Below, piece after piece: positions 1,032 through 25,304 of a stretch of 64,000 bases of DNA. Origin of the DNA: Agrococcus terreus. GTDB taxonomy: Bacteria > Actinomycetota > Actinomycetes > Actinomycetales > Microbacteriaceae. The DNA lies in contig NZ_BMLM01000001.1 of the NCBI RefSeq assembly GCF_014645235.1, positions 1,860,001 through 1,924,000 on the forward strand, written 5' to 3'. The notes below the pieces were generated by a model. The model saw only the letters and a program-made list of their open reading frames with translations. It had not been told where the DNA came from and searched no databases. The stretch's first letter is position 1. Each line of letters begins with the position of its first letter. Position numbers and translations under genes: made by a program.

Positions 1032-3590
1032 ATGAGCGCCATGCCCGAGAAGCCCGCCCTCGAAGGACTCGAGGAGAAGTGGGGCGCCCGCTGGGAGCAG
1101 GACGGCACGTACCGGTTCGACGCCGCGGGCCGCACCCGCGACGAGATCTACTCGATCGACACGCCCCCGCCCACCGCCTCCGGCTCGCTGCACATCGGCC
1201 ACGTCTTCTCCTACACGCACACCGACGTCGTCGCCCGCTTCCAGCGCATGCGCGGCAAGCACGTCTTCTACCCGATGGGCTGGGACGACAACGGCCTCCC
1301 CACCGAGCGCCGCGTGCAGAACTACTACGGCGTGCGCGTCGACCCGACGCTCCCCTACGACCCGCAGTTCACGCCCCCGCAGGAGGGCGGCGAGGGCAAG
1401 AGCGCGAAGGCCGCCGACCAGGTGCCCGTCTCGCGCCGCAACTTCATCGAGCTCTGCGAGCGCCTCACCGAGGAGGACGAGGAGAAGTTCGAGCACCTGT
1501 GGCGCTCGCTCGGCCTCTCGGTCGACTGGTCGCAGACGTACCGCACGATCTCGGACGACGCGCGCCGCACCTCGCAGCTCGCCTTCCTCCGCAACCTCGA
1601 GCGCGGCGAGGCGTACCAGGCGGATGCGCCCACGCTGTGGGACGTCACGTTCCGCACCGCCGTGGCCCAGGCCGAGCTCGAGGACCGCGAGCAGCCCGGC
1701 GCCTACAGCACGCTGCTCTTCACGAGCCAGGACGGCGACCTGCGCATCGACACGACGCGCCCCGAGCTGCTGCCGTCGTGCGTGGCCGTCGTCGCGCATC
1801 CCGACGACGAGCGCTACCGCCACCTGTTCGGCACCACCGTGACGACGCCGGTGTTCGGTGTCGAGGTGCCCTTCGTGGCGCACGAGCTCGCCCAGATCGA
1901 CAAGGGCACGGGCGTGGCGATGATCTGCACGTTCGGCGACGTCACCGACGTGACGTGGTGGCGCGAGCTCGACCTGCCGAACCGCTCGGTGATCGGCTTC
2001 GACGGCCGCTTCCAGGCGGAGGCGCCGGAGGCCCTCGCGAGCGAGGCCGCGCAGGCCGCCTACGCCGAGCTCGCGGGCAAGACCGTGTTCAGCGCCAAGA
2101 AGGCGATGCTGGAGCTGCTGCAGGAGGCCGGCCGCGTCATCGGCGAGCCCCGCACGATCACGCACCCGGTGAAGTTCTTCGAGAAGGGCGACAAGCCGCT
2201 CGAGATCGTCTCGACCCGCCAGTGGTACATCCGCAACGGCGGCCGCGACGGCGACCTCCGCGAGCGCCTCGTGGAGCTCGGCCGGCAGATCGAGTGGCAC
2301 CCCGAGCACATGCGCACCCGCTACGAGAACTGGGTGAACGGCCTCAACGGCGACTGGCTCATCTCGCGCCAGCGCTTCTTCGGCGTGCCGATCCCCGTCT
2401 GGTACGCGCTCGACGAGGAGGGCCAGCCCGACCACGCGCAGGTGCTGCTGCCGCGCATCGACCAGCTGCCGCTCGACCCCTCGAGCGACGTGCCCGACGG
2501 CTACGACGAGTCGCAGCGCGGCGCCCCCGGCGGCTTCGCCGGCGAGGTCGACGTCATGGACACGTGGGCCACCTCGTCGCTCACGCCGCAGCTCGCGGGC
2601 CGCTGGGCCGACGGGCAGGACCTGTGGTCGCTGCTCGCGCCGTTCGACCTGCGCCCCCAGGGCCAGGACATCATCCGCACCTGGCTCTTCTCGACGCTGC
2701 TCCGCTCGGCGTTCGAGGACGGCCGCGCGCCGTGGGCGCACGCGGGCATCTCCGGCTGGATCCTCGACCCCGACCGCAAGAAGATGTCGAAGTCGAAGGG
2801 CAACGTCGTCACCCCGCAGGGCATGCTCGACGAGCACGGCTCGGACGGCGTGCGCTACTGGGCCGCGTCGTCGCGCCTCGGCGCCGACGCGACGCTCGAC
2901 CCGCAGAACCCGAAGATGGTGAAGATCGGCCGCCGCCTCGCGATGAAGGTGCTGAACGCCGCCCGCTTCGTGCTGTCGATGGAGGGCGAGCCGGGCGCCG
3001 TGACGCAGCCGCTCGACGCCGAGATGCTCGCCGAGCTCGCCGACGTCGTGCGCGTCGCCACCCGCTCCTTCGAGGGCTACGACCACGCGAAGGCGCTCGA
3101 GGCGACCGAGGCGTTCTTCTGGACCTTCTGCGACGACTACCTCGAGCTCGTCAAGGAGCGCGCCTACTCGGGCGACGCCGAGGGCCGCGGCTCCGCGATC
3201 GCGGCGCTCCGCACCGCCATCGACGTGCAGCTGCGCCTGCTCGCGCCGTTCCTGCCCTTCGCCACCGAGGAGGTGTGGTCGTGGTCGCACGAGGGCTCGA
3301 TCCACGCCGCCGCGTGGCCGACGCCCGACGACCTCGGCGCCGAGCACGGCTCCACCGGCATGCTCGGCACCGTCGGCCAGGCGCTCATCGGCATCCGCCG
3401 CGCCAAGACGGACGCGAAGGCCAGCCAGAAGACGCCCGTCGCCTCCGCGGTCATCGGCGTGCCGGCCGCGCACCGCGAGCACATCGAGGGGGCCGCCGAG
3501 GACCTCCGCGCCGTGGGCCGCATCCGCGACCTCCGCATCGAGGACGCCGAGGAGCTCGTCGTGCGCGACATCGTGCTCGAGGAGGCCTGA
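1032..3590 (+). CDS. valS: Valine--tRNA ligase
   Basis: Class Ia aminoacyl-tRNA synthetase that charges tRNA-Val in the cytoplasm. From the ATG at 1032 the protein has 852 residues. The ATP-binding HIGH motif is at 54-57 inside a PPPTASGSLHIGH context, and KMSKS is at 584-588. The editing (CP1) domain lies between them and the anticodon-binding domain follows, including FATEEVWSW. Residues such as GWDDNGLPTERRVQNYYG match the short actinobacterial form of ValS, without an obvious long C-terminal coiled coil. An upstream in-frame ATG (1005) exists, but 1032 has AGGGAAG about 8-12 nt upstream. The stop overlaps the next ATG. Confidence 0.97.
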   Translation: MSAMPEKPALEGLEEKWGARWEQDGTYRFDAAGRTRDEIYSIDTPPPTASGSLHIGHVFSYTHTDVVARFQRMRGKHVFYPMGWDDNGLPTERRVQNYYGVRVDPTLPYDPQFTPPQEGGEGKSAKAADQVPVSRRNFIELCERLTEEDEEKFEHLWRSLGLSVDWSQTYRTISDDARRTSQLAFLRNLERGEAYQADAPTLWDVTFRTAVAQAELEDREQPGAYSTLLFTSQDGDLRIDTTRPELLPSCVAVVAHPDDERYRHLFGTTVTTPVFGVEVPFVAHELAQIDKGTGVAMICTFGDVTDVTWWRELDLPNRSVIGFDGRFQAEAPEALASEAAQAAYAELAGKTVFSAKKAMLELLQEAGRVIGEPRTITHPVKFFEKGDKPLEIVSTRQWYIRNGGRDGDLRERLVELGRQIEWHPEHMRTRYENWVNGLNGDWLISRQRFFGVPIPVWYALDEEGQPDHAQVLLPRIDQLPLDPSSDVPDGYDESQRGAPGGFAGEVDVMDTWATSSLTPQLAGRWADGQDLWSLLAPFDLRPQGQDIIRTWLFSTLLRSAFEDGRAPWAHAGISGWILDPDRKKMSKSKGNVVTPQGMLDEHGSDGVRYWAASSRLGADATLDPQNPKMVKIGRRLAMKVLNAARFVLSMEGEPGAVTQPLDAEMLAELADVVRVATRSFEGYDHAKALEATEAFFWTFCDDYLELVKERAYSGDAEGRGSAIAALRTAIDVQLRLLAPFLPFATEEVWSWSHEGSIHAAAWPTPDDLGAEHGSTGMLGTVGQALIGIRRAKTDAKASQKTPVASAVIGVPAAHREHIEGAAEDLRAVGRIRDLRIEDAEELVVRDIVLEEA

Positions 3591-15943: not shown

Positions 15944-15970
15944 CAATCCGTTCGGCACCATGCGCCGAAC
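15944..15970 (+). promoter_or_regulatory. SigK-type promoter, autoregulatory
   Basis: CAATCC (15944-15949), 15 nt, CCGAAC (15965-15970). The same bipartite motif with the same spacing occurs upstream of dipZ and of the fasciclin gene. It resembles the mycobacterial SigK consensus as I remember it (CCATCC/CCGAAT). An in-frame ATG (15978) lies 7 nt after the -10. The -10 also lies in a 7-bp inverted repeat, GTTCGGC-N7-GCCGAAC (15950-15970). Confidence 0.6.
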
Positions 15971-16022
15971 CACCGGCATGACCTCCGCGATCCTGCTCCG
16001 CGGGCCTGCGATAGTGGGCTTC

Positions 16023-16571
16023 GTGGACATCGACATCGAGCAGTGCCTCGTGCGCGCTGCGGGTGGCGATCAGCGCGCCTTCGCGGAGCTGTACGACGCG
16101 ACCTCGTCGCGCGTGTTCGGCCTCGTGCTGCGCATCCTGGTCGATCGCGCGCAGGCGGAGGAAGTCGCCCAGGAGGTCTTCCTGGAGGCGTGGCGGCAGG
16201 CGAAGCGCTTCGACCCGACGCGCGGGGCGGCCGTCAGCTGGCTGCTGCAGATCGCGCACGCCCGCGCCGTCGACCGCGTGCGCGCCTCGCAGGCGCAGCG
16301 CGACCGCGACCGGCGCATCGGCGAGCGCGACCTCGGCGTCCCGGTGGACGACGTGTCCGAGCGGGCCGAGATCTCGCTCGACGCGGCGCGCGCCCGCCAG
16401 GCGCTCGAGGAGCTGCCGGACGCGCAGCGCGAGGCGATCGAGCTGGCGTACTTCGGCGGCTACACGCAGTCGGAGATCGCCGAGCGGCTGGGGACGCCGC
16501 TCGGCACGGTGAAGACGAGGCTGCGGGACGGCATGATCCGCCTGCGAGGGATCCTGGGGGTGACGGCATGA
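16023..16571 (+). CDS. sigK: ECF sigma factor SigK
   Basis: From the GTG at 16023 it is 182 residues. Region 2 spans about 18-85 (AFAELYDATSSRVFGLVLRIL, QAEEVAQEVFLEAWRQAKRFDP, SWLLQIAHARAVDRVRASQAQ). Region 4 spans about 125-175, with helix-turn-helix YTQSEIAERLGTPLGTVKTRL. The wording matches SigK-type ECFs. An in-frame ATG at 15978 would add 15 residues and sits 7 nt after a SigK-like -10; GATAGT ends 7 nt before the GTG. Either start could be leaderless. The stop overlaps the rskA start (ATGA). The only cysteine is Cys8, so the cysteine pair reported to form a disulfide in mycobacterial SigK is absent. Confidence 0.88.
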   Translation: MDIDIEQCLVRAAGGDQRAFAELYDATSSRVFGLVLRILVDRAQAEEVAQEVFLEAWRQAKRFDPTRGAAVSWLLQIAHARAVDRVRASQAQRDRDRRIGERDLGVPVDDVSERAEISLDAARARQALEELPDAQREAIELAYFGGYTQSEIAERLGTPLGTVKTRLRDGMIRLRGILGVTA

Positions 16572-17386
16572 GCATCGACGACCAGCGCGCGATCGACGAG
16601 CTCGCAGCTGCCTACGCGCTCGACGCGCTCGACGCCGACGAGCGGGCGCTCTTCGAGGCGAAGGCGTCGCCGGAGGCGCGCGCCGAGGCGACCGCGCTCG
16701 CCGAGACGGCCTCGCGCCTCTCGAGCGACGAGGCGACGCCCTCGCCGTTCCTCCGCGCGAGCGTGCTCGACGCGATCGCCCGCACGCCGCAGCTCCCGGC
16801 CGAGGACGCGACGGTGACGCCCCTGCGGCCCGCTCCGGCGCCTGCACCCGCCCTCGACGCGGACGATGACGAGCCGATCCGCGCGGCCGGCGGCGGTGCC
16901 GCCGCGCCCGCGCCCGGCCCCGCCGAGCGCCGCGCCAAGGCGCGCTGGCGCCCGCTCCGCACGCTCGTGGGCGTGGCGGCAGCGGCGGCGCTGCTCTCGG
17001 GCGGCATCGCGATCGGCACCCAGCTCGACGGCGGCGACGACCGGGCGGAGGCCGTCGGCGCGATCGTCGCGGCGACGGACGCGCAGCGCGCCGAGGTCGA
17101 GATGGCCGACGGCTCGGTGGCGACGGTCGTGTGGTCGGCCGAGGAGGGTCGCTCGGCGATCCTGTTCGACGGCCTGGGCTCGGCCCCGGCCGGACAGGTC
17201 TACCAGGCCTGGTACATCGACGCGGCGGGCCCGCACAGCGCCGGCACGTTCACGTCGGCGGGCGGCAGCACGGCCTACGTGCTCGACGGCGAGCTGACGC
17301 CCGGCACCGCGGTCGGCGTGACCGTGGAGCCCGACGGCGGCTCCGAGGCGCCGACGACCGACCCGATCCTCGTCGTCGAGACCTGA
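16568..17386 (+). CDS. rskA: Anti-sigma-K factor RskA
   Basis: A 272-residue membrane anti-sigma factor. The cytoplasmic N-terminus has the sigma-binding pattern ELAAAYALDALDADERALFE (11-30), then a Pro/Ala-rich linker, one membrane helix (about 131-150) and an extracytoplasmic RskA C-domain with VYQAWYID, AGTF and VGVTVEPDGGSEAPTTDPIL. In mycobacteria RskA is released from SigK by regulated intramembrane proteolysis; the same arrangement is inferred here from topology. The ATGA overlap with sigK supports equimolar coupled synthesis. Confidence 0.93.
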   Translation: MSIDDQRAIDELAAAYALDALDADERALFEAKASPEARAEATALAETASRLSSDEATPSPFLRASVLDAIARTPQLPAEDATVTPLRPAPAPAPALDADDDEPIRAAGGGAAAPAPGPAERRAKARWRPLRTLVGVAAAAALLSGGIAIGTQLDGGDDRAEAVGAIVAATDAQRAEVEMADGSVATVVWSAEEGRSAILFDGLGSAPAGQVYQAWYIDAAGPHSAGTFTSAGGSTAYVLDGELTPGTAVGVTVEPDGGSEAPTTDPILVVET

Positions 17387-17418
17387 TCCGGCCCGACGAT
17401 GCGCGGCCTGCATGCCGC

Positions 17419-17462
17419 GCATCCGTGCGGTACGCACGCCCGGCATCCGTGCGGCACGCACG
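17419..17462 (+). repeat. Two direct copies of a 20-nt hairpin repeat
   Basis: GCATCCGTGCGGYACGCACG occurs at 17419-17438 and 17443-17462 with one difference. Each copy folds as CGTGCG, a 3-nt loop, CGCACG. They lie after rskA and may end its transcript. Confidence 0.6.
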
Positions 17463-17495
17463 ACGGGCACCCACGCGGTGCCATGATCGGACTCG

Positions 17496-18434
17496 ATGTC
17501 AGACTCCCCCGCCCCCGGTGAGGCGCCCGGCGCCCGCTCGGGCCGCCTCGGCCCCACCGCGATCTCGCTCGCCTCGGTGGGCCTCGTCGTCACGTGGAGC
17601 TCGGGGTTCGTGGGCGCCGAGCTCGCCCACCGCGCCGACGGCGAGCCGATCACGGTGCTCGCGTGGCGGTTCGTCGTGCTCGCGGGCATCCTCGTCGCCG
17701 CCATGCTCGCGCTGCGCCGCCCGTGGCCGGGCCCGCGGAGCTGGCTGCGCCAGGGCACGATCGGCCTGCTGAGCCAGGCCTGCTACCTGCTCGCGGTCTT
17801 CGAGGGCGTGCGGTTCGGCGTCGACGGCGGCACGGCGGCGCTCATCGCGGCGCTGCAGCCGCTGCTCGTCGCGACCGTCGCCGGCCGCATCCTCGGCGAG
17901 CGTGCGACGCGCTGGACGTGGCTGGGCATGGCGCTCGGCCTCGTCGGCGTCGCGCTCGTCGTGTCGGGCCGGATCGGCACGACCGACGCGCCGTGGTGGG
18001 CGTACCTCGTGCCCTTCGCGGGCGTCCTCGCGCTCGGCACCGGCACGGTGCTGCAGCGCCGCTGGCACGCGGACGACGACCTGCTGCAGACGATCACGCT
18101 GCAGTCGCTCGTCGCGGGCGGCGCGCTCATGGCGGTCGCACTGCTGCGCGGCGTCGCCGCTCCGCCGACCTCCCCCGACGTGTGGGGCGCCATCCTCTGG
18201 CTCGTGGTGCTCGCGAGCCTCGGCGGCTACGGCCTGTACGTCACCGTGACGCGCTCGCACGGCGCGACCTTCGTCTCGACGCTGCTCTACCTGACGCCGC
18301 CGACGACGATGCTGTGGGTGCTGCTCGTGTTCGGCGTGCCCGTGCCGCCGATCGGGATCGTCGGGCTCGCGGTCGCCGCGGTCGGCGTCACGATCGTGCT
18401 CGTCGCGCAGCGGCGGGCGCGGCCGCGCGGCTGA
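17496..18434 (+). CDS. EamA/DMT-superfamily transporter
   Basis: A 312-residue polytopic membrane protein with about ten hydrophobic helices arranged as two EamA repeats. The first includes SLASVGLVVTWSSGFVGAELA and AALIAALQPLLVATVAGRILGE, the second SHGATFVSTLLYLTPPTTMLWVLLVFG. DMT proteins usually export small metabolites or amino acids. The substrate is not predictable. It stands alone, with a CATGAT hexamer 8 nt before the ATG. It is convergent with the aldo/keto reductase gene, 17 bp apart. Confidence 0.9.
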   Translation: MSDSPAPGEAPGARSGRLGPTAISLASVGLVVTWSSGFVGAELAHRADGEPITVLAWRFVVLAGILVAAMLALRRPWPGPRSWLRQGTIGLLSQACYLLAVFEGVRFGVDGGTAALIAALQPLLVATVAGRILGERATRWTWLGMALGLVGVALVVSGRIGTTDAPWWAYLVPFAGVLALGTGTVLQRRWHADDDLLQTITLQSLVAGGALMAVALLRGVAAPPTSPDVWGAILWLVVLASLGGYGLYVTVTRSHGATFVSTLLYLTPPTTMLWVLLVFGVPVPPIGIVGLAVAAVGVTIVLVAQRRARPRG

Positions 18435-18451
18435 GCGCCCTCGGCGGCGGC

Positions 18452-19459
18452 TCAGGTCCTCGCGAGCGCCGCGTCGATCGCGTCGAGCTCTGCCTGCTCG
18501 AGCGGCGGCGCCGCGAGCGCCGCGACGTTCGCCTCGAGCTGCTCGACGCTGCTCGCGCCGACGATCGCGGAGGTGACGCGCTCGTCGCGGAGCACCCAGG
18601 CGAGGGCGAGCTGCGCGAGGCTCTGGCCGCGCTCGCGCGCGATGCCGTCGAGCTCGCGGGCGACCGCGACCTTCGCCTCGGTGATGTCGCCCTCCGAGAG
18701 GTACCGCGAGTGCGTGGCCCGGGATCCCTCCGGCACGCCCCGCAGGTAGCGGTCGGTGAGGAGGCCCTGCGCGAGGGGCGAGAACACGACCATGCCGAGG
18801 CCCAGGCGGCCCACGGTGTCGAGCAGGCCGTGCTCGACGTGCCGGTCGAGCATCGAGTAGCGGGGCTGGTGGAGCAGCAGGCTGCCGCCGGCGTCGGCGA
18901 TCGCGGCGGCGGCCGCATCCGTCTGGATCGGCGAGTAGTTCGAGATCGCGGCGTAGCGGGCGCGGCCGGAGCGCACGATGTCTGCGAGGGCGCCCATCGT
19001 CTCCTCGATGGGCGTCTCGGGGTCGGGCCGGTGGTGGTAGAACACGTCGACGTGGTCGAGGCCCATGCGGCGCAGGCTCTGGTCGAGCGAGGCGAAGAGG
19101 TACTTGCGCGAGCCGCCGTCGCCGTAGGGGCCGGGCCACATGTCGTAGCCGGCCTTCGACGAGATGACGAGCTCGTCGCGGTAGCGGCCGAGGTCGCGCG
19201 CGAGGTGGCGGCCGAAGCCGTCCTCTGCGGAGCCGTAGGGCGGGCCGTAGTTGTTCGCGAGGTCGAAGTGCGTGATGCCGAGGTCGAAGGCGCGGCGCAG
19301 GATCGCGCGCTGGCGGTCCTCGGGGGTCGTGGCGCCGAAGTTCTGCCACAGGCCGAGCGACAGGGCGGGCAGCCGGATGCCGCTGCGGCCCGCACGGCGG
19401 TAGACAGCGCCCTCTGCCTCGTAGCGGCCCTCGGCGGCGACGTAGCGCTCCTCGATCAC
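18452..19459 (-). CDS. Aldo/keto reductase, YghZ/Gpr (AKR14) type
   Basis: A 335-residue TIM-barrel oxidoreductase. LSLGLWQNFG, FDLANNYGPPYGSAEDGFG and ISSKAGYDMWPGPYGDGGSRKYL match the L-glyceraldehyde-3-phosphate reductase / methylglyoxal reductase branch. The AKR tetrad is visible as Asp in FDLANNYG, the following Tyr, Lys in SSKAGYD and His in FYHHRPD. It should use NADPH to reduce toxic short aldehydes. The start is a GTG preceded by GAGGAG. Gene order with mmuM upstream may reflect one transcript (47-nt gap). Confidence 0.9.
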   Translation of the reverse strand: MIEERYVAAEGRYEAEGAVYRRAGRSGIRLPALSLGLWQNFGATTPEDRQRAILRRAFDLGITHFDLANNYGPPYGSAEDGFGRHLARDLGRYRDELVISSKAGYDMWPGPYGDGGSRKYLFASLDQSLRRMGLDHVDVFYHHRPDPETPIEETMGALADIVRSGRARYAAISNYSPIQTDAAAAAIADAGGSLLLHQPRYSMLDRHVEHGLLDTVGRLGLGMVVFSPLAQGLLTDRYLRGVPEGSRATHSRYLSEGDITEAKVAVARELDGIARERGQSLAQLALAWVLRDERVTSAIVGASSVEQLEANVAALAAPPLEQAELDAIDAALART

Positions 19460-19506
19460 GGTGCTCCTCGCTCCCCGCGGCGCGTCGGCGCGCCGCCAGG
19501 GCGAAC

Positions 19507-20412
19507 CTATCGGCTGGCGAGCAGGCGTGCGATCGCGGCGATGTCGTCGGGCCCCACCCGGCAGCATCCGCCGATGAATTGCGCCCCGGCATCCGCCCAC
19601 CCGACCGCGAGCGCCGCGTCGAGGCCCGGCTCGCCGCGCCACCGGCGCGCGTCGGCGTCCCACGTCTCGCCGGCGTTGGGGTAGACGACCGCAGGCGCGC
19701 CGCTCGCCGCGACCGCCGACCGCACCGCGGGCAGCGCGTCGCCCGGCGCGCAGCAGTTGACGCCCACGGCGACGACGGCGCTCCTGCCCGCCGCGAGCGC
19801 GAACGCCTCGACCGCCGGGCGCCCGTCGCGGAGCCGATCCCCCGCGACCGTGCACGAGAGCCAGGCGGGCATCGCGAGCTCCTCGGCGAGGTCGAGCAGC
19901 ACGGCAGCCTCGTCGAGGTCGGGGATCGTCTCGATCGCGAGGAGGTCGGGGCCGGCGCTCGCCAGCAGCTCCATGCGGGGCCCGTGGAAGTCGCGCAGCG
20001 CGCTCCGGCTGAGCCCGTAGCGGCCGCGGTACTCGGAGCCGTCGGCGAGGATCGCGCCGTACGGGCCGACGGAGGCCGCGACGAGCCGCGGCGCTCCGTC
20101 TCCCGCGGTCGCCTCGACTTCGTCGCGCACCTCGCGGGCGATCCTCACGCTCCTCCGGATGAGGCGCTCGGCCTCGACCCGGGCCATGCCGTCGCGCTCG
20201 AAGCCGACGACGCTCGCCTGGTAGCTCGCCGTCGTGGCGACGTGCGCGCCCGCGTCGAAGTACGCGCGGTGCACCGCGGCGATCTCCTCCGGCGCGTCGC
20301 GCAGGAGCCTGGCCGTCCAGAGCGCGTCGGACAGGTCGTGCCCACGATCGGCGAGCGCGTTCGAGAGCCCGCCGTCGAGCACGACGACGGGAGCGTCGGT
20401 CGGATCCGTCAC
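19507..20412 (-). CDS. mmuM: Homocysteine S-methyltransferase
   Basis: A 301-residue zinc enzyme of the Hcy-binding barrel family. Zinc cysteines are visible in VGVNCCAPG and IGGCCRVGP. VVLDGGLSNALADRGHDL at the N-terminus and LLAIETIPDLDEA complete the signature. It transfers a methyl group from S-methylmethionine or SAM to homocysteine to make methionine. The start is the GTG at 20412; the in-frame upstream stretch is out of family and antisense to a small ORF. No mmuP permease gene is adjacent. Confidence 0.88.
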   Translation of the reverse strand: MTDPTDAPVVVLDGGLSNALADRGHDLSDALWTARLLRDAPEEIAAVHRAYFDAGAHVATTASYQASVVGFERDGMARVEAERLIRRSVRIAREVRDEVEATAGDGAPRLVAASVGPYGAILADGSEYRGRYGLSRSALRDFHGPRMELLASAGPDLLAIETIPDLDEAAVLLDLAEELAMPAWLSCTVAGDRLRDGRPAVEAFALAAGRSAVVAVGVNCCAPGDALPAVRSAVAASGAPAVVYPNAGETWDADARRWRGEPGLDAALAVGWADAGAQFIGGCCRVGPDDIAAIARLLASR

Positions 20413-20476
20413 CCACTCATCCTCGCCGATCGCACAGGCGCGGACCACGCGTGCGCGACGTCCAACGGGTCGCTTG

Positions 20477-20482
20477 TACCCT
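20477..20482 (+). promoter_or_regulatory. Candidate -10 in the 253-bp mmuM/asparagine-synthetase-like gap
   Basis: TACCCT on the plus strand. Transcription from about 20489 would give a leader of about 65 nt before the small ORF at 20557. The -35 is weak. Apart from the small ORF the gap shows no other clear element. Confidence 0.35.
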
Positions 20483-20556
20483 GGTCGCGGTGTGCCGGGA
20501 AGTCTGGTCGGCGGCCGTCGTTCGAGCTCGGCGGTGATGACGACAGGAGACTTCGC

Positions 20557-20655
20557 ATGCACCAGCCGCCAGCCCACCGCCCCGCTGCCATACGTCGAGG
20601 CCAGCTCCCAGCCCCGGGCCGACTCGCGGCTCCTCGTCGGCGCTCGCGACGCTGA
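20557..20655 (+). CDS. Possible 32-residue leader peptide
   Basis: ATG with a textbook Shine-Dalgarno (AGGAG at 20545-20549, 7-nt spacing). It encodes 32 residues, Pro/Arg/Ala rich, starting MHQPPAHRPAA and ending PRRRSRR, and stops 10 nt before the ATG of the asparagine-synthetase-like gene, which has no Shine-Dalgarno of its own. This suggests a leader peptide that couples translation. The composition does not look like a lasso-peptide precursor, a toxin or a membrane peptide. It may alternatively be chance. Confidence 0.35.
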   Translation: MHQPPAHRPAAIRRGQLPAPGRLAAPRRRSRR

Positions 20656-20665
20656 GCCGCACCGC

Positions 20666-22423
20666 ATGTCGAACTATCTCGTCATCGTCCACGCCGCGCA
20701 GCACGATGCGGCGGTCGACCGCTGGCTGCGCCGCTGGAGCACGCCGTCGGAGACCCACGTCGAGCAGCTGGGCCGCTCCCGCCTCGTCATCGTCGCCAAG
20801 GACGTCGAACGCAGCATCGAGGACCGGCGCTTCTTCCGCGGCAGCGCGGTCGCGACCGAGCACGGCGCCATCGTGTTCGGGATCGACGGCTGGAAAGCCG
20901 CGCCAGCTGGGCTGCGAGGCGACCCCGGCAGCGCGAGCGGGGAGTTCGTCGCGCTCGACTGGTCGGACGGGAGCCTGCGGCTCGATCGCGACGTGTTCGG
21001 CAGCGTGCGGACCGCGCACACCCACCTCCGCGGCCTCATCGCCGCGTCCGATTCCCTGCTCGTGCTCGCATCCCTCCGCAGCGCGCTGGGCGCGCGGAAC
21101 CGCCTGCACGTGGAGGTGGCCGCGGCGCGCACCGCGCGAAGCGCCGTCGCCGCGCAGCAGCTCTCGCCCGACACGATCGTCGAGGGCATCGACTACGTCC
21201 CCGCGGGCCGCGGGCTGCGGCAGCGTCGTGCCTCGCTCCGCTGGGCCCTCACGGGCGAGCGTGTGGCAGAGCGCGTCGAGGCGGCCCGATCCGCCGGCAC
21301 CGTCGAGCTCCTGCGCCGCAGCGCCGACGACGCGGCGCGGGTGCTGGGTGCCCTGCCAGGAGTGCCCGGGTGGCACACGCGGCTCAGCCTCTCGGGTGGC
21401 CAGGACTCGCGCGCCGTGCTCGCCGCCGCGATGGCCATGGGCGTCGAGGGCGCCATCTCCGTCCACACGGCGCCCCGCACGGCGGCGACCGCTGCCGATC
21501 ATGACGTCGCGATGCACCTGGCGCAGGCGCGGTCGATCCGCACCGAGGCGCCGTCGCAGGTCGAGCGCCCTGTGGCACCCGACGAGGCGCAGACGCTCTG
21601 GGCCGCGTCGCTGCTCGGCCTCTACGACGATTTCGGCCCGCTGGCACCGCACCGCCAGCTGCGGTCCACGTTCGCCCTCACCGGCGTCGGCGCCGAGCTG
21701 CACAAGGGGAACTGGGACTGGCAGCCGCTCGACCGGCTCGCCGACGGCGCAGCCGAGGGCGTCGTGCGCGACGCGGTGCACGCTCAGCTGTGCACGGGCG
21801 CGAGGTCGGTCGGCGCCGATGCGCGCGCCGGCAGCGCGAGCGAGCTGGTCTACCTCGGCTACCGCAACGGCATCCACGGCTCTGCGGGCCACATCAGCCT
21901 GCACATGACGACGATCAGCCCGCTGATGCAGCTGTCGCTGGCTGCCGCTGGTCATCAGCCGCGCAGCCCCGGGACGGGCTTCGCGGGCTCCCGCGCAGGC
22001 ATCTCGGCCATGATCGCGATGCTCGACCCGGAGCTCGTGACCGAGCCGTACGCGGAGGCCGAGCACGCCATCGCGCCCGATGTCGCGGATCGACTGCTCG
22101 CCGCCGTCGGCGGCCCGCTCGAGCCCGGTCCGGCGCTCACCGTCCACGGGCGCCCCGACGACATCCCCCGCGGCCCGTCGGCGCTGTCGATGCGCATCGC
22201 CGATGACTGGGGCTTCCGAGGGCCCCTGGCCGTCGACGCGGTGATGGCCGGCGCCGACGACGCGGTCGCCGGCATCGGGGACAGAGACCTGCGGGGCCTC
22301 TACGTCGACCTCCTCGCGAACGCGCGGTGGCGGCTCGATCGCTCGGGCGGGAACCTGCGGGCAGAGGGGCGGCAGCCCGCGCGCATCCGCTCGCTCGCGC
22401 TCATCGCCGGCCTGGACGGCTGA
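20666..22423 (+). CDS. Orphan asparagine-synthetase-like (PP-loop) protein
   Basis: A 585-residue protein with the ATP-pyrophosphatase motif SGGQDS at 243-248 in LRLSLSGGQDSRAVLAAAM context, as in the synthetase domain of AsnB. The N-terminal ~235 residues look like a degenerate Ntn glutaminase fold, but residue 2 is Ser (MSNYL) and no catalytic Cys2 is available, so glutamine hydrolysis is unlikely. It should adenylate a carboxylate and pass it to some amine or thiol; the substrate is unknown. Codon usage looks less GC-biased than in neighbours, with more AAA, CCA and GCA. An alternative in-frame ATG is at 20537. No partner enzymes of lasso or glycan pathways are adjacent. Confidence 0.7.
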   Translation: MSNYLVIVHAAQHDAAVDRWLRRWSTPSETHVEQLGRSRLVIVAKDVERSIEDRRFFRGSAVATEHGAIVFGIDGWKAAPAGLRGDPGSASGEFVALDWSDGSLRLDRDVFGSVRTAHTHLRGLIAASDSLLVLASLRSALGARNRLHVEVAAARTARSAVAAQQLSPDTIVEGIDYVPAGRGLRQRRASLRWALTGERVAERVEAARSAGTVELLRRSADDAARVLGALPGVPGWHTRLSLSGGQDSRAVLAAAMAMGVEGAISVHTAPRTAATAADHDVAMHLAQARSIRTEAPSQVERPVAPDEAQTLWAASLLGLYDDFGPLAPHRQLRSTFALTGVGAELHKGNWDWQPLDRLADGAAEGVVRDAVHAQLCTGARSVGADARAGSASELVYLGYRNGIHGSAGHISLHMTTISPLMQLSLAAAGHQPRSPGTGFAGSRAGISAMIAMLDPELVTEPYAEAEHAIAPDVADRLLAAVGGPLEPGPALTVHGRPDDIPRGPSALSMRIADDWGFRGPLAVDAVMAGADDAVAGIGDRDLRGLYVDLLANARWRLDRSGGNLRAEGRQPARIRSLALIAGLDG

Positions 22424-22479
22424 GCGCACCGCGCCAGAGCGGCCGCGGGCCGGTCGGATGCGAGGAGTCGTCTCACCGG

Positions 22480-22554
22480 TCGGGGCGACAGGATTCGAAC
22501 CTGCGACCTCCCGCTCCCAAAGCGGGCGCTCTAGCCAAGCTGAGCTACGCCCCG
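22480..22554 (-). tRNA. tRNA-Pro (anticodon UGG)
   Basis: A 75-nt cloverleaf: acceptor CGGGGCG pairs with CGCCCCG, anticodon stem CCCGC/GCGGG encloses loop TTTGGGA (anticodon TGG), and T-loop GTTCGAATC is present. The discriminator is A and CCA is not encoded. Confidence 0.95.
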
Positions 22555-22605
22555 GAGGGCGACCCGCAGGAGGCGCTCCGAGGGCCAACTCTAGCGCCGC
22601 CATGA

Positions 22606-22635
22606 GCGGGGTCCGGTCGTGACCACGGACCCCGC
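22606..22635 (-). terminator. Hairpin terminator after dipZ
   Basis: 10-bp perfect stem GCGGGGTCCG/CGGACCCCGC (22606-22615, 22626-22635), 22 nt beyond the dipZ stop. Confidence 0.7.
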
Positions 22636-22656
22636 CCTCCCCGGTTCCCTCCGGGC

Positions 22657-24447
22657 CTATCCGAAGGTGAACGAGTAGGCCTCGACGCCCTCGGGCACCG
22701 TGACCTCGATCGTCCCCTCCTGGCTCTGATCCGCCCGGAGCAGCTGGTAGCTGCGGGGCGTGCCGCTCACGTCGAGCTCGACGCGCTCGCCGTCGATGTC
22801 GGCGACCACCGTGCCGGTGCCGGCGAGCACCATCCGCACCTCCTGGCCGCGGTACTGCAGCCGGATGCGGGCCTCGTCGCCGCGTGGCGTGGCGAACTGC
22901 GTCTCGAGCTGCCAGTCGCCGTCGAGCGCGAACGTGTCGGCCGCCTGCTGCGCCGGGTAGGCGAACGCCTCGGCCTGCGCCGAGTAGCGCTCCTCGCCGC
23001 CGAAGTTCTGCACCTTCGTCGTGCCGAGGTACGACTCCGGCGTGATGTCGGCGTTCAGCGGCGTCTCGTCGCTCGTCTCGGTGGCGGCGGGCAGCTGCAC
23101 GCCCGGATCCGCCTGCTGCAGCAGCTCGCGGATCATCTGCTCGCCCTCCTGGTACTGCCCCTCGCCGAAGTGCACGTTGCGCACGGTGCCGTCGGCGTCG
23201 ATGAGGTAGCGGGCGGGCCAGTACGCGTTGCGGTAGTTCGTCCAGGTCGAGAGCGAGTTGTCGATCGCGACCGGGTACTCGATGCCGAGCGCCTCGGCGC
23301 CGTCGATGACGTTCTGGCGCTCCTTCTCGAACGCGTACTCGGGGCTGTGCACGCCGATCACCTCGAGCCCCGCATCCCGGTACGCGTCGTACCAGGCGTT
23401 GATGTGGGGCGTGGAGCGCTGGCAGTTGATGCACGAGTAGGCCCAGAAGTCGACGAGCACGACCTTGCCGCGGAGGTCGGCGAGGTCGACCGGCTGGTCG
23501 CCGTCGGTGTTGAACCACGAGTCGATGCCGCGGATGCTGGGGGCCGTGCCGCACTCCTGCAGCTCGGTCGCACCCGGGTCGCAGAGGTCGAGGTCCTTGT
23601 TCTCGTCGTTCTCGAGGCCGCCGATGGCGATGGCCTCCTGCACGTCCTCGTTGCCGGCGATCGACTCCTGGATGGCCGAGGTGTAGTCGGGCACGAGCCG
23701 CTGCAGCCGCGCGGGCAGGTCGAAGACGAGGCCGATCGCGAGCAGGATCATGAGCGCGCCCGAGACGACGCGGATGACGCCCTGGCGGCGGCGGAACGCG
23801 GCGATGCGCTCGGCGAGGCCGCGGCCGGCGAGCGCGAAGAACAGCAGCGGCAGCGCCGCGCCGATCGCGAACGAGACGGTGAGCACCACGGTGTCGGCGC
23901 CGATCTGCCCGGTCGCGCCCGCGACGGTGATCGCGGCGAGCACCGGGCCTGCGCACGGCACGTAGACGGCGCCGAGCGCGAGGCCGAGCGGGAAGCCCTG
24001 CAGCCGGTCGGTGCGCATCTGCGGGAAGCGCTCGAACGGCTTCTCGAGCAGGTGCTGCACCGCCGGCACCATGAGACCGATGCCGATGAGGGTGAGGACG
24101 ACGATGCCCGCCCAGCGCAGCACGTCCTGCGGGAGACCGAGGAGGCTGAGGACGAGCGATCCGGCGAGCGTCATGATCGTGAAGCTGGTGACGATGCCCG
24201 CGATCACGAAGTAGGGGCGCCAGCGCGAGACGGTGCGCGTCTTCCGCACCGTCTCCCTGCGGGTCGCGGTCGCGACCGCGCCCGTGGACGCACCCGCCTC
24301 CTCACCGTCCTGAGCATCCCCCGCCGCCGCCCGCTGCTCGCGCGCGGACTGCATGCCGCCGGAAAACAGGATGACGGGCAGCACGGGGATGATGCATGGC
24401 GAGATGCCGGTGATGAAGCCGCCGAGCAGTCCGATGAGCGCGAGCAC
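22657..24447 (-). CDS. dipZ: DipZ-type thiol-redox protein: CcdA membrane domain fused to thioredoxin-like domain
   Basis: A 596-residue protein that moves reducing power across the membrane. The CcdA domain (about 1-245, six or more helices) has redox cysteines Cys18 (SPCIIP) and Cys165 (VPCAGP). The exported TlpA-like domain has CINC at 339-342 (FWAYSCINCQRSTPHINAWY). The C-terminal ~130 residues form the beta-rich module seen at the end of mycobacterial DipZ. The start is the GTG at 24447, with GGGAGG upstream. A SigK-like promoter precedes it, divergent from the fasciclin gene. In M. tuberculosis dipZ sits between mpt83 and mpt70. Confidence 0.93.
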   Translation of the reverse strand: MLALIGLLGGFITGISPCIIPVLPVILFSGGMQSAREQRAAAGDAQDGEEAGASTGAVATATRRETVRKTRTVSRWRPYFVIAGIVTSFTIMTLAGSLVLSLLGLPQDVLRWAGIVVLTLIGIGLMVPAVQHLLEKPFERFPQMRTDRLQGFPLGLALGAVYVPCAGPVLAAITVAGATGQIGADTVVLTVSFAIGAALPLLFFALAGRGLAERIAAFRRRQGVIRVVSGALMILLAIGLVFDLPARLQRLVPDYTSAIQESIAGNEDVQEAIAIGGLENDENKDLDLCDPGATELQECGTAPSIRGIDSWFNTDGDQPVDLADLRGKVVLVDFWAYSCINCQRSTPHINAWYDAYRDAGLEVIGVHSPEYAFEKERQNVIDGAEALGIEYPVAIDNSLSTWTNYRNAYWPARYLIDADGTVRNVHFGEGQYQEGEQMIRELLQQADPGVQLPAATETSDETPLNADITPESYLGTTKVQNFGGEERYSAQAEAFAYPAQQAADTFALDGDWQLETQFATPRGDEARIRLQYRGQEVRMVLAGTGTVVADIDGERVELDVSGTPRSYQLLRADQSQEGTIEVTVPEGVEAYSFTFG

Positions 24448-24470
24448 GCTGCCTCCCTTGGTCGTCGGAG

Positions 24471-24497
24471 GTTCGGGGCGAGGGACGGATCGGATGG
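24471..24497 (-). promoter_or_regulatory. SigK-type promoter of dipZ
   Basis: On the minus strand CCATCC (24497-24492), 15 nt, CCGAAC (24476-24471). The predicted start near 24464 leaves a leader of about 17 nt holding the GGGAGG ribosome site. Confidence 0.6.
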
Positions 24498-24533
24498 GCA
24501 ACCTGGGAATCCCATCCAAGGCTCAGGTCCGCG

Positions 24534-24560
24534 CAATCCGGCCCCTGGGAGGCTCCGAAG
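24534..24560 (+). promoter_or_regulatory. SigK-type promoter of the fasciclin gene
   Basis: CAATCC (24534-24539), 15 nt, CCGAAG (24555-24560). The leader to the ATG at 24621 is about 54 nt and includes AGGGAG. Confidence 0.55.
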
Positions 24561-24620: not shown

Positions 24621-25304
24621 ATGCTCACCAAGAAGAACCCCAAGATGGCCGGGCTCGTGCTCGTCGGAGCGGCGACGCTCGTGCTGGCGGGCTGCTCGAT
24701 GGGTGGCACGACCGCCGAAGAGAGCACCGAGCCCACGACCGACACGATGGAGTCGTCGGAGCCGATGGAGACCGGCTCGGCGATGGACGACCCGGCCTAC
24801 GCGAACCTCGTGGGCTCCGCCTGCGAGGCCTACGACATGGAGGTGCCGGACGGCGCCGGATCCATCGTCGGCATGTCGCAGGACCCGGTGGCGGTCGCGG
24901 CCTCGAACAACCCGATGCTCACGCAGCTCACCGCCGCGGTGTCGGGCCAGCTGAACCCCGACGTCGACCTCGTCGACACGCTCAACGGCGACGAGTTCAC
25001 CGTCTTCGCGCCGGTGGACGAGGCCTTCGAGGCGCTCCCCGCCGACACGCTCGAGCTGCTGCAGACGCCTGAGGGCGCCGAGACGCTCGAGACGGTGCTC
25101 ACGTACCACGTGGTGCCCGGCCAGGTCGCGCCCGACGCGATCGCCGGCATGCACACGACGGTGCAGGGCGAGGACGTCGAGGTCACGGGCGAGGGCGACT
25201 CGCTCATGGTGAACGACGCCACCGTGCTCTGCGGCGGCGTGCAGACCGCGAACGCGACGGTCTACCTCATCGACTCGGTGCTGATGCCGCCGTCGATGGG
25301 CTGA
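24621..25304 (+). CDS. Fasciclin-domain lipoprotein (MPT70/MPT83-like)
   Basis: A 227-residue lipoprotein: signal peptide with lipobox LAGC (Cys25), a Ser/Thr/Glu/Met-rich linker (about 30-55), then one FAS1 domain (about 75-226) with the hallmarks [17 protein letters not shown] and [10 protein letters not shown], ending [11 protein letters not shown]. Two further cysteines (SACEAYDM and VLCGGV) could form a disulfide, as in MPT70. FAS1 proteins act in surface adhesion. It is divergent from dipZ, and a similar promoter motif serves both, which argues for SigK control. Confidence 0.92.

Follow-up and report, generated by a model that had tools for sequence, protein, structure and literature searches.

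A probable SigK-RskA regulon comprising fasciclin lipoprotein and DipZ genes in Agrococcus terreus

The genes for the sigma factor SigK, its anti-sigma factor RskA, the thiol-disulphide carrier DipZ, and a fasciclin-domain (FAS1) lipoprotein are located within 64,000 nucleotides of Agrococcus terreus DNA (contig NZ_BMLM01000001.1, positions 1,860,001 to 1,924,000; this whole stretch is called the window). Based on sequence comparison they most probably belong to a SigK-RskA regulon, in which sigK-rskA would be autoregulated and dipZ and fas1 would be read from divergent promoters. We assign this reading a probability of about 0.9. It is supported by the ranks of the three promoters under a matrix built from other genomes, by de novo word counts, by the conservation of the sites in relatives, and by the orthology of the proteins.

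Promoters and genes of the window

The SigK-type promoter of sigK-rskA is found at 15944..15970 on the forward strand and consists of the -35 element CAATCC (15944-15949), a spacer of 15 nucleotides (N15), and the -10 element CCGAAC (15965-15970). The dipZ promoter at 24471..24497 on the reverse strand combines CCATCC (24497-24492) with CCGAAC (24476-24471), and the fas1 promoter at 24534..24560 on the forward strand combines CAATCC (24534-24539) with CCGAAG (24555-24560), both again across N15. A preceding sequence-only reading had proposed three shared sites of equal spacing, and direct reading of the sequence returns the same positions and the same N15 in each. A weight matrix was derived from 74 sites of other genomes of the family, leaving out the own genome. 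With this held-out matrix the sigK, dipZ, and fas1 sites score 31.5, 23.3, and 19.6 bits and occupy ranks 1, 2, and 3 among 127,940 window positions, followed by the next-best position with 13.1 bits. The best score in 20 first-order shuffled windows was 17.0 bits, and none of these windows reached the 19.6 bits of the fas1 site.

The sigK gene (15978..16571, +) encodes an extracytoplasmic function (ECF) sigma factor, which scores 254 bits against the NCBIfam SigK model NF007228 (cutoff 226) and has M. tuberculosis SigK (4nqw) as best match in the PDB. It is followed by rskA (16568..17386, +), which overlaps the end of sigK (ATGA) and encodes a membrane anti-sigma-K factor (Pfam RskA_C PF10099 with 86 bits, cutoff 29.4; also an anti-sigma factor according to NCBIfam). 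An rskA gene adjoining sigK in the same orientation is a feature of SigK-RskA regulons (ECF18/19), and further features, a SigK-type sigma factor and the promoter sequence before fas1, sigK, and dipZ, are present as well. The in-frame ATG at 15978 stands 7 nt after the end of the -10 element (15970), and GTG 16023 is an alternative start. An ECF transcript would begin at or next to this ATG, which makes it probable that the sigK mRNA is leaderless. Two further genomes of the same genus, G049 and G119, have CAATCC-N15-ACGAAC at the same place with an ATG exactly 7 nt further on and an open N-terminal frame. An inverted repeat, TTCGGC-N7-GCCGAA at 15951-15969, spans the sigK spacer and the -10 element, overlapping the promoter; it is possibly an operator or a chance occurrence.

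The dipZ gene (22657..24447, -; start chosen by coding score) encodes a protein with DsbD-type transmembrane, thioredoxin/AhpC, and C-terminal Thioredoxin_10 domains (Pfam), whose best PDB match is M. tuberculosis DipZ (5cyy, E 1e-113). The fas1 gene (24621..25304, +) encodes a fasciclin-domain lipoprotein (Pfam Fasciclin, 94 bits) with a lipobox-like LAGC. It is related to MPT83/MPT70 and its best PDB match is MPT70 (1nyo, E 2.4e-55); in the mature part the two are about 60% identical. Its nearest named matches are three Agrococcus proteins at 85%, 78%, and 69% identity, followed by Microbacterium at 69%. Cys68 and Cys204 are present in all 161 distinct FAS1 sequences that score at least 200 bits.

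In the mechanism that we infer from these data, membrane-embedded RskA would hold the ECF sigma factor SigK until an envelope signal relieves RskA, perhaps by proteolysis if the analogy with M. tuberculosis holds. SigK would then lead RNA polymerase to CMATCC-N15/16-CCGAA promoters. SigK would thereby activate its own operon in a positive loop, the sigK-rskA message probably being leaderless, and a single intergenic region with two back-to-back promoters would serve dipZ and the fasciclin lipoprotein gene. The FAS1 lipoprotein with its two conserved cysteines would be exported, and DipZ as a thiol-disulphide carrier could plausibly service its disulphide or others of the envelope.

Frequency and conservation of the motif

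Chance matches to a consensus in a GC-rich genome have to be considered. The own genome (2.83 Mb, the scope of all own-genome counts) contains ten matches to MATCC-N15-CCGAAS and none to the reversed control, and 45 matches to the looser MATCC-N14..18-CCGAA with three in the reversed control. Among these 45, the seven starting with AATCC all have N15 or N16, and the 38 starting with CATCC are scattered across all spacings without an excess of N15 and look mostly like background. The looser form is therefore unspecific, and loose CATCC..CCGAA was rejected as a genome-wide regulon finder, since every spacing is represented. The second point favouring chance comes from 30 genomes of the family, picked mostly for having a sigK site or FAS1, in which CAATCC-N15/16-CCGAA is found 107 times and the same hexamers at a distance of N18/19 still 44 times. 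Some 40% of the matches in the 30 genomes may therefore be background; in the own genome the corresponding counts are seven and zero. CAATCC sites within the sigK match in G028, G103, and G106 were set aside as coding.

Such background does not account for the sites at the named genes. Above the score limits, the family sample of 150 genomes yielded 110 sigK-like, 44 fas1, and 29 dipZ genes; seven further family genomes with only weak FAS1 matches were left out. In a de novo count of all gapped 4-mer pairs the registers of the motif come out top in the sigK and fas1 upstream sets, with CAAT-N18-CGAA in 44 sigK sequences (0.17 expected) and ATCC-N16-CGAA in 27 fas1 sequences (0.16 expected). 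In the dipZ set the forward form ranks fourth; first comes the reverse complement of the motif, which stems from the fas1 promoter facing the other way. Further high-ranking words of the fas1 set resemble the coding region of the dipZ gene opposite. The strict motif CMATCC-N15/16-CCGAA occurs within 300 bp upstream of 28/44 fas1, 34/110 sigK, and 13/29 dipZ genes, and Markov shuffles of the upstream sets gave mean counts of at most 0.1. On the opposite strand it was counted 2, 16, and 16 times for sigK, fas1, and dipZ, respectively, but this strand is not a clean control for fas1 and dipZ because these genes are divergent. The named FAS1 loci, the best 80 of at least 533 confirmed (nine of the 80 shorter than 8 kb), have a strict fas1 site in 69 cases, 66 of them N15, and in 70 if the -10 element is relaxed. 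They include Nocardioides and Arthrobacter, and Demequina in the relaxed form. The spacers are visibly different between genera and the hexamers are therefore the conserved part. A divergent dipZ is present in 35 of the 80 loci, with a slightly relaxed site on its side in 27, and sigK lies within the stored flanks in 65. The proposed conservation of the motif upstream of orthologues in relatives is thus borne out. Together with the held-out ranks and the shuffles, these observations make chance a very improbable explanation.

Several absences weigh against a SigK-RskA regulon of this composition. The strict fas1 site is missing in 11 of the 80 named loci; even the relaxed form is absent on the fas1 side in Agrococcus jejuensis and all three Rathayibacter loci, and no fas1-side site was found in the named loci of Frigoribacterium, Cryobacterium, Haematomicrobium, one Agromyces, and two Microbacterium. 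In the family sample 16/44 fas1 genes and 62/96 sigK genes with rskA have no strict motif within 300 bp. Fourteen of the latter are located downstream of and codirectional with dipZ, some of them with a site farther out, and the remaining 48 are not explained by this arrangement. FAS1 genes of other families (f27, f36, most of f34, and genus g129 of f11) have no site. Finally, the two same-genus genomes G049 and G119 encode sigK and show no FAS1 or DipZ match at the thresholds used. Their loci L010, L011, L201, and L230 show that SigK, a sigK promoter whose -10 element is ACGAAC, and the candidate CHRD target are retained. From sequence, part of the regulon would appear to have been lost or gained within one genus.

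The many sigK-rskA genes without the motif in the same family that has motif-bearing targets, as well as further SigK-like paralogues in some genomes, would also fit real ECF promoters that mainly serve a different ECF sigma factor of the genome, or several whose specificities overlap, SigK being only one contributor. This is unlikely, although less so than chance. The best-scoring site of the window precedes sigK itself, and each of the 44 family genomes in which FAS1 matches strongly also encodes SigK. In addition, the strict motif is present before none of the 14 sigK-like genes that had no rskA detected next to them, compared to 34 of the 96 with rskA. SigK orthologues of different species also recognise the mpt70 promoter according to excerpts of PMC7509140. 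A SigK-RskA regulon is further consistent with the co-occurrence of both genes in a class-wide sample of 394 genomes (FAS1 matches at 1e-35, SigK matches at 1e-40), in which FAS1 was found in 149, SigK in 210, and both in 144 genomes (Fisher p 5e-48, a value that carries no phylogenetic correction). SigK is thus encoded by 144/149 genomes with FAS1 and by 66/245 genomes without. As a side observation, loci L463, L464, and L466 (genomes G282, G364, and G197 of other actinobacterial families) contain a lower-scoring FAS1 gene that immediately precedes sigK in the same orientation and has a site.

Candidate further targets and the missing SigK cysteines

Genes downstream of the motif were inspected in 76 loci, which cover part of the 107 matches and contain 81 motif rows (79 distinct sites), of which 47 rows (46 sites) are in promoter position as called by a crude coding-score gene finder. 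A recurrent candidate is the DUF4383 family of membrane proteins, found downstream of the motif in 11 of the 30 genomes. Examining 81 of the 86 DUF4383 genes of the family, with a tolerance slightly different between scans, a strict site was found before 13 of the 70 lower-scoring genes in 10 genera, and three relaxed sites increase this to 16 in 11 genera; eleven of these were found through the motif itself. Elsewhere in the same loci the strict motif occurs 0.002 times per 320 bp and therefore about 0.15 sites are expected among 70 genes. None of the 11 high-scoring DUF4383 genes has a site. In the own genome DUF4383 is preceded by the degenerate CCATCC-N15-TCGAAG only, with 8.4 bits and about 63 nt before the gene (L422 915-945 (-), C1 ~1292.8 kb), and its relatives have strict sites in 13 genomes and relaxed ones in three. 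Among the open-licence papers listed for DUF4383 or SigK, none treats both.

The other candidates are less widespread. The own genome has a second divergent pair of SigK-type sites at C1:780.3 kb (L003, C1:778806-781831), located at 1501-1527 (-) before a gene for a small lipoprotein (20.3 bits) and at 1565-1592 (+) before a gene for a CHRD-like protein that ends in a GVDTG sorting tail (N16). Both sites are kept in G049 (L201), and the divergent lipoprotein accompanies CHRD in two of three Agrococcus genomes. Only 4/16 CHRD homologues have a site, and three of these four belong to the own genus, which weakens CHRD as a general target. Two cupredoxins have a site. A cupredoxin lipoprotein of the own genome scores 22.0 bits but is a weak candidate, as the only relative found for it in the 150 genomes (G119) shows no site. 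A fatty acid desaturase of the own genome reaches 12.8 bits. An ABC transporter ATPase, by reading of the osmoprotectant type, has an intergenic site and a permease-like gene behind it in four genomes of three genera (G017, G028, G037, and G103). The corresponding site in Agrococcus (L200, L232, and L233) was discarded; it lies within the operon, inside the end of the permease-like gene, and coding constraint can therefore explain its conservation.

Where M. tuberculosis SigK has Cys133 and Cys183, the aligned residues in the SigK of the window are Ala138 and Ile177, and both redox cysteines are thus absent. In the main group of SigK-type sequences (180 distinct sequences, mostly of the same family) the 12 commonest residue pairs cover 176 sequences, of which seven have a cysteine at the first column and none has the pair. 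Among 19 sequences of a second group, mostly from other families, six have a cysteine at the second column and again none has both. According to excerpts of PMC7509140, these cysteines affect the interaction of SigK with RskA and are retained by 94% of the ECF18 and 56% of the ECF19 group. Members without the pair are thus reported there, and the pair is therefore not a strict requirement for membership. It is an even question whether SigK of the Microbacteriaceae governs an enlarged envelope regulon that is not redox-gated and adds DUF4383, the CHRD/lipoprotein pair, some cupredoxins, and the osmoprotectant-type ABC transporter, in which case the redox input would be younger, or less widely retained, than the set of genes that the regulon controls. 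The absence of the cysteine pair from SigK separates regulon function from the redox signal of M. tuberculosis, and the candidate targets, DUF4383 above all, provide a lead on proteins of unknown function.

Comparison with mycobacterial and other known systems

Genus g102 provides mycobacterial-type loci. Its FAS1 proteins are 67-73% identical to MPT70, and the genes beside them read as dxr, rip1, and gcpE in L450, L451, and L452, with dxr also in L403. This neighbourhood follows the gene order in M. tuberculosis. Because of the gene order and the MPT70 identity, we take g102 to be Mycobacterium or a close genus. In L451 CCATCC-N15-CCGAAT precedes both FAS1 copies, and in L398 (genome G526) CAATCC/CCATCC-N15-CCGAAT stand back to back at 2210-2266 before divergent dipZ and fas1. 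The -35 element is degenerate in L403 and L450, where the spacer is again N15, and no site was seen in L406, L407, and L452, the other three of the seven loci examined. The sequence-only reading had regarded the spacing in Agrococcus as shorter than an assumed mycobacterial 16-17 nt. However, all four mycobacterial-type loci that have a site, two of them degenerate, show N15, and the assumed value is therefore unsupported.

The idea of a SigK-FAS1-DipZ unit outside mycobacteria, also put forward in that reading, is supported by the de novo counts, the held-out matrix, motif conservation, and orthology. As a concept it is not new, because excerpts of PMC7509140 already describe conservation of SigK sites outside mycobacteria: the sites are called highly conserved across Actinobacteria, and Gram-negatives, even Yersinia, are reported to have kept an mpt83-sigK-rskA cassette together with its SigK site (citing Veyrier 2008). 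Microbacterium, Agrococcus, Micrococcales, and Microbacteriaceae are not mentioned in the main text of that paper, and searches of open-licence papers showed none on a SigK regulon of Microbacteriaceae. Apparently new are the family-wide extent, the extra candidate targets, the probable leaderless start of sigK, and the absence of the redox cysteines. MPT70/MPT83 and DipZ have so far been studied mainly as mycobacterial antigens or envelope proteins, and Agrococcus, a genus not listed as pathogenic, shares the sigma factor, the promoter, and the targets, so that their physiological role could be studied outside mycobacteria.

The SigK regulon of M. bovis is made up of the sigK locus and a region with mpb83-dipZ-mpb70 (PMC10540498). 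The Agrococcus genes resemble the regulon of M. tuberculosis and M. bovis in that SigK, MPT70, and DipZ are the best PDB matches of the window proteins, and in that CMATCC-N15-CCGAA sites are also found in mycobacterial-type loci. In contrast to the MPT83/MPT70 pair of mycobacteria, Agrococcus encodes one FAS1 protein, and its SigK lacks the two redox cysteines of the M. tuberculosis protein. Its dipZ and fas1 genes differ from the M. tuberculosis and M. bovis arrangement in being divergent, with promoters back to back, as is also the case in the mycobacterial-type locus L398. With the mpt83-sigK-rskA cassette, as far as described in the excerpts of PMC7509140, Agrococcus shares the non-mycobacterial combination of a gene for a lipid-anchored FAS1 protein carrying a SigK site with sigK-rskA. 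Unlike this cassette, the Agrococcus unit includes dipZ and stretches over 8.6 kb.

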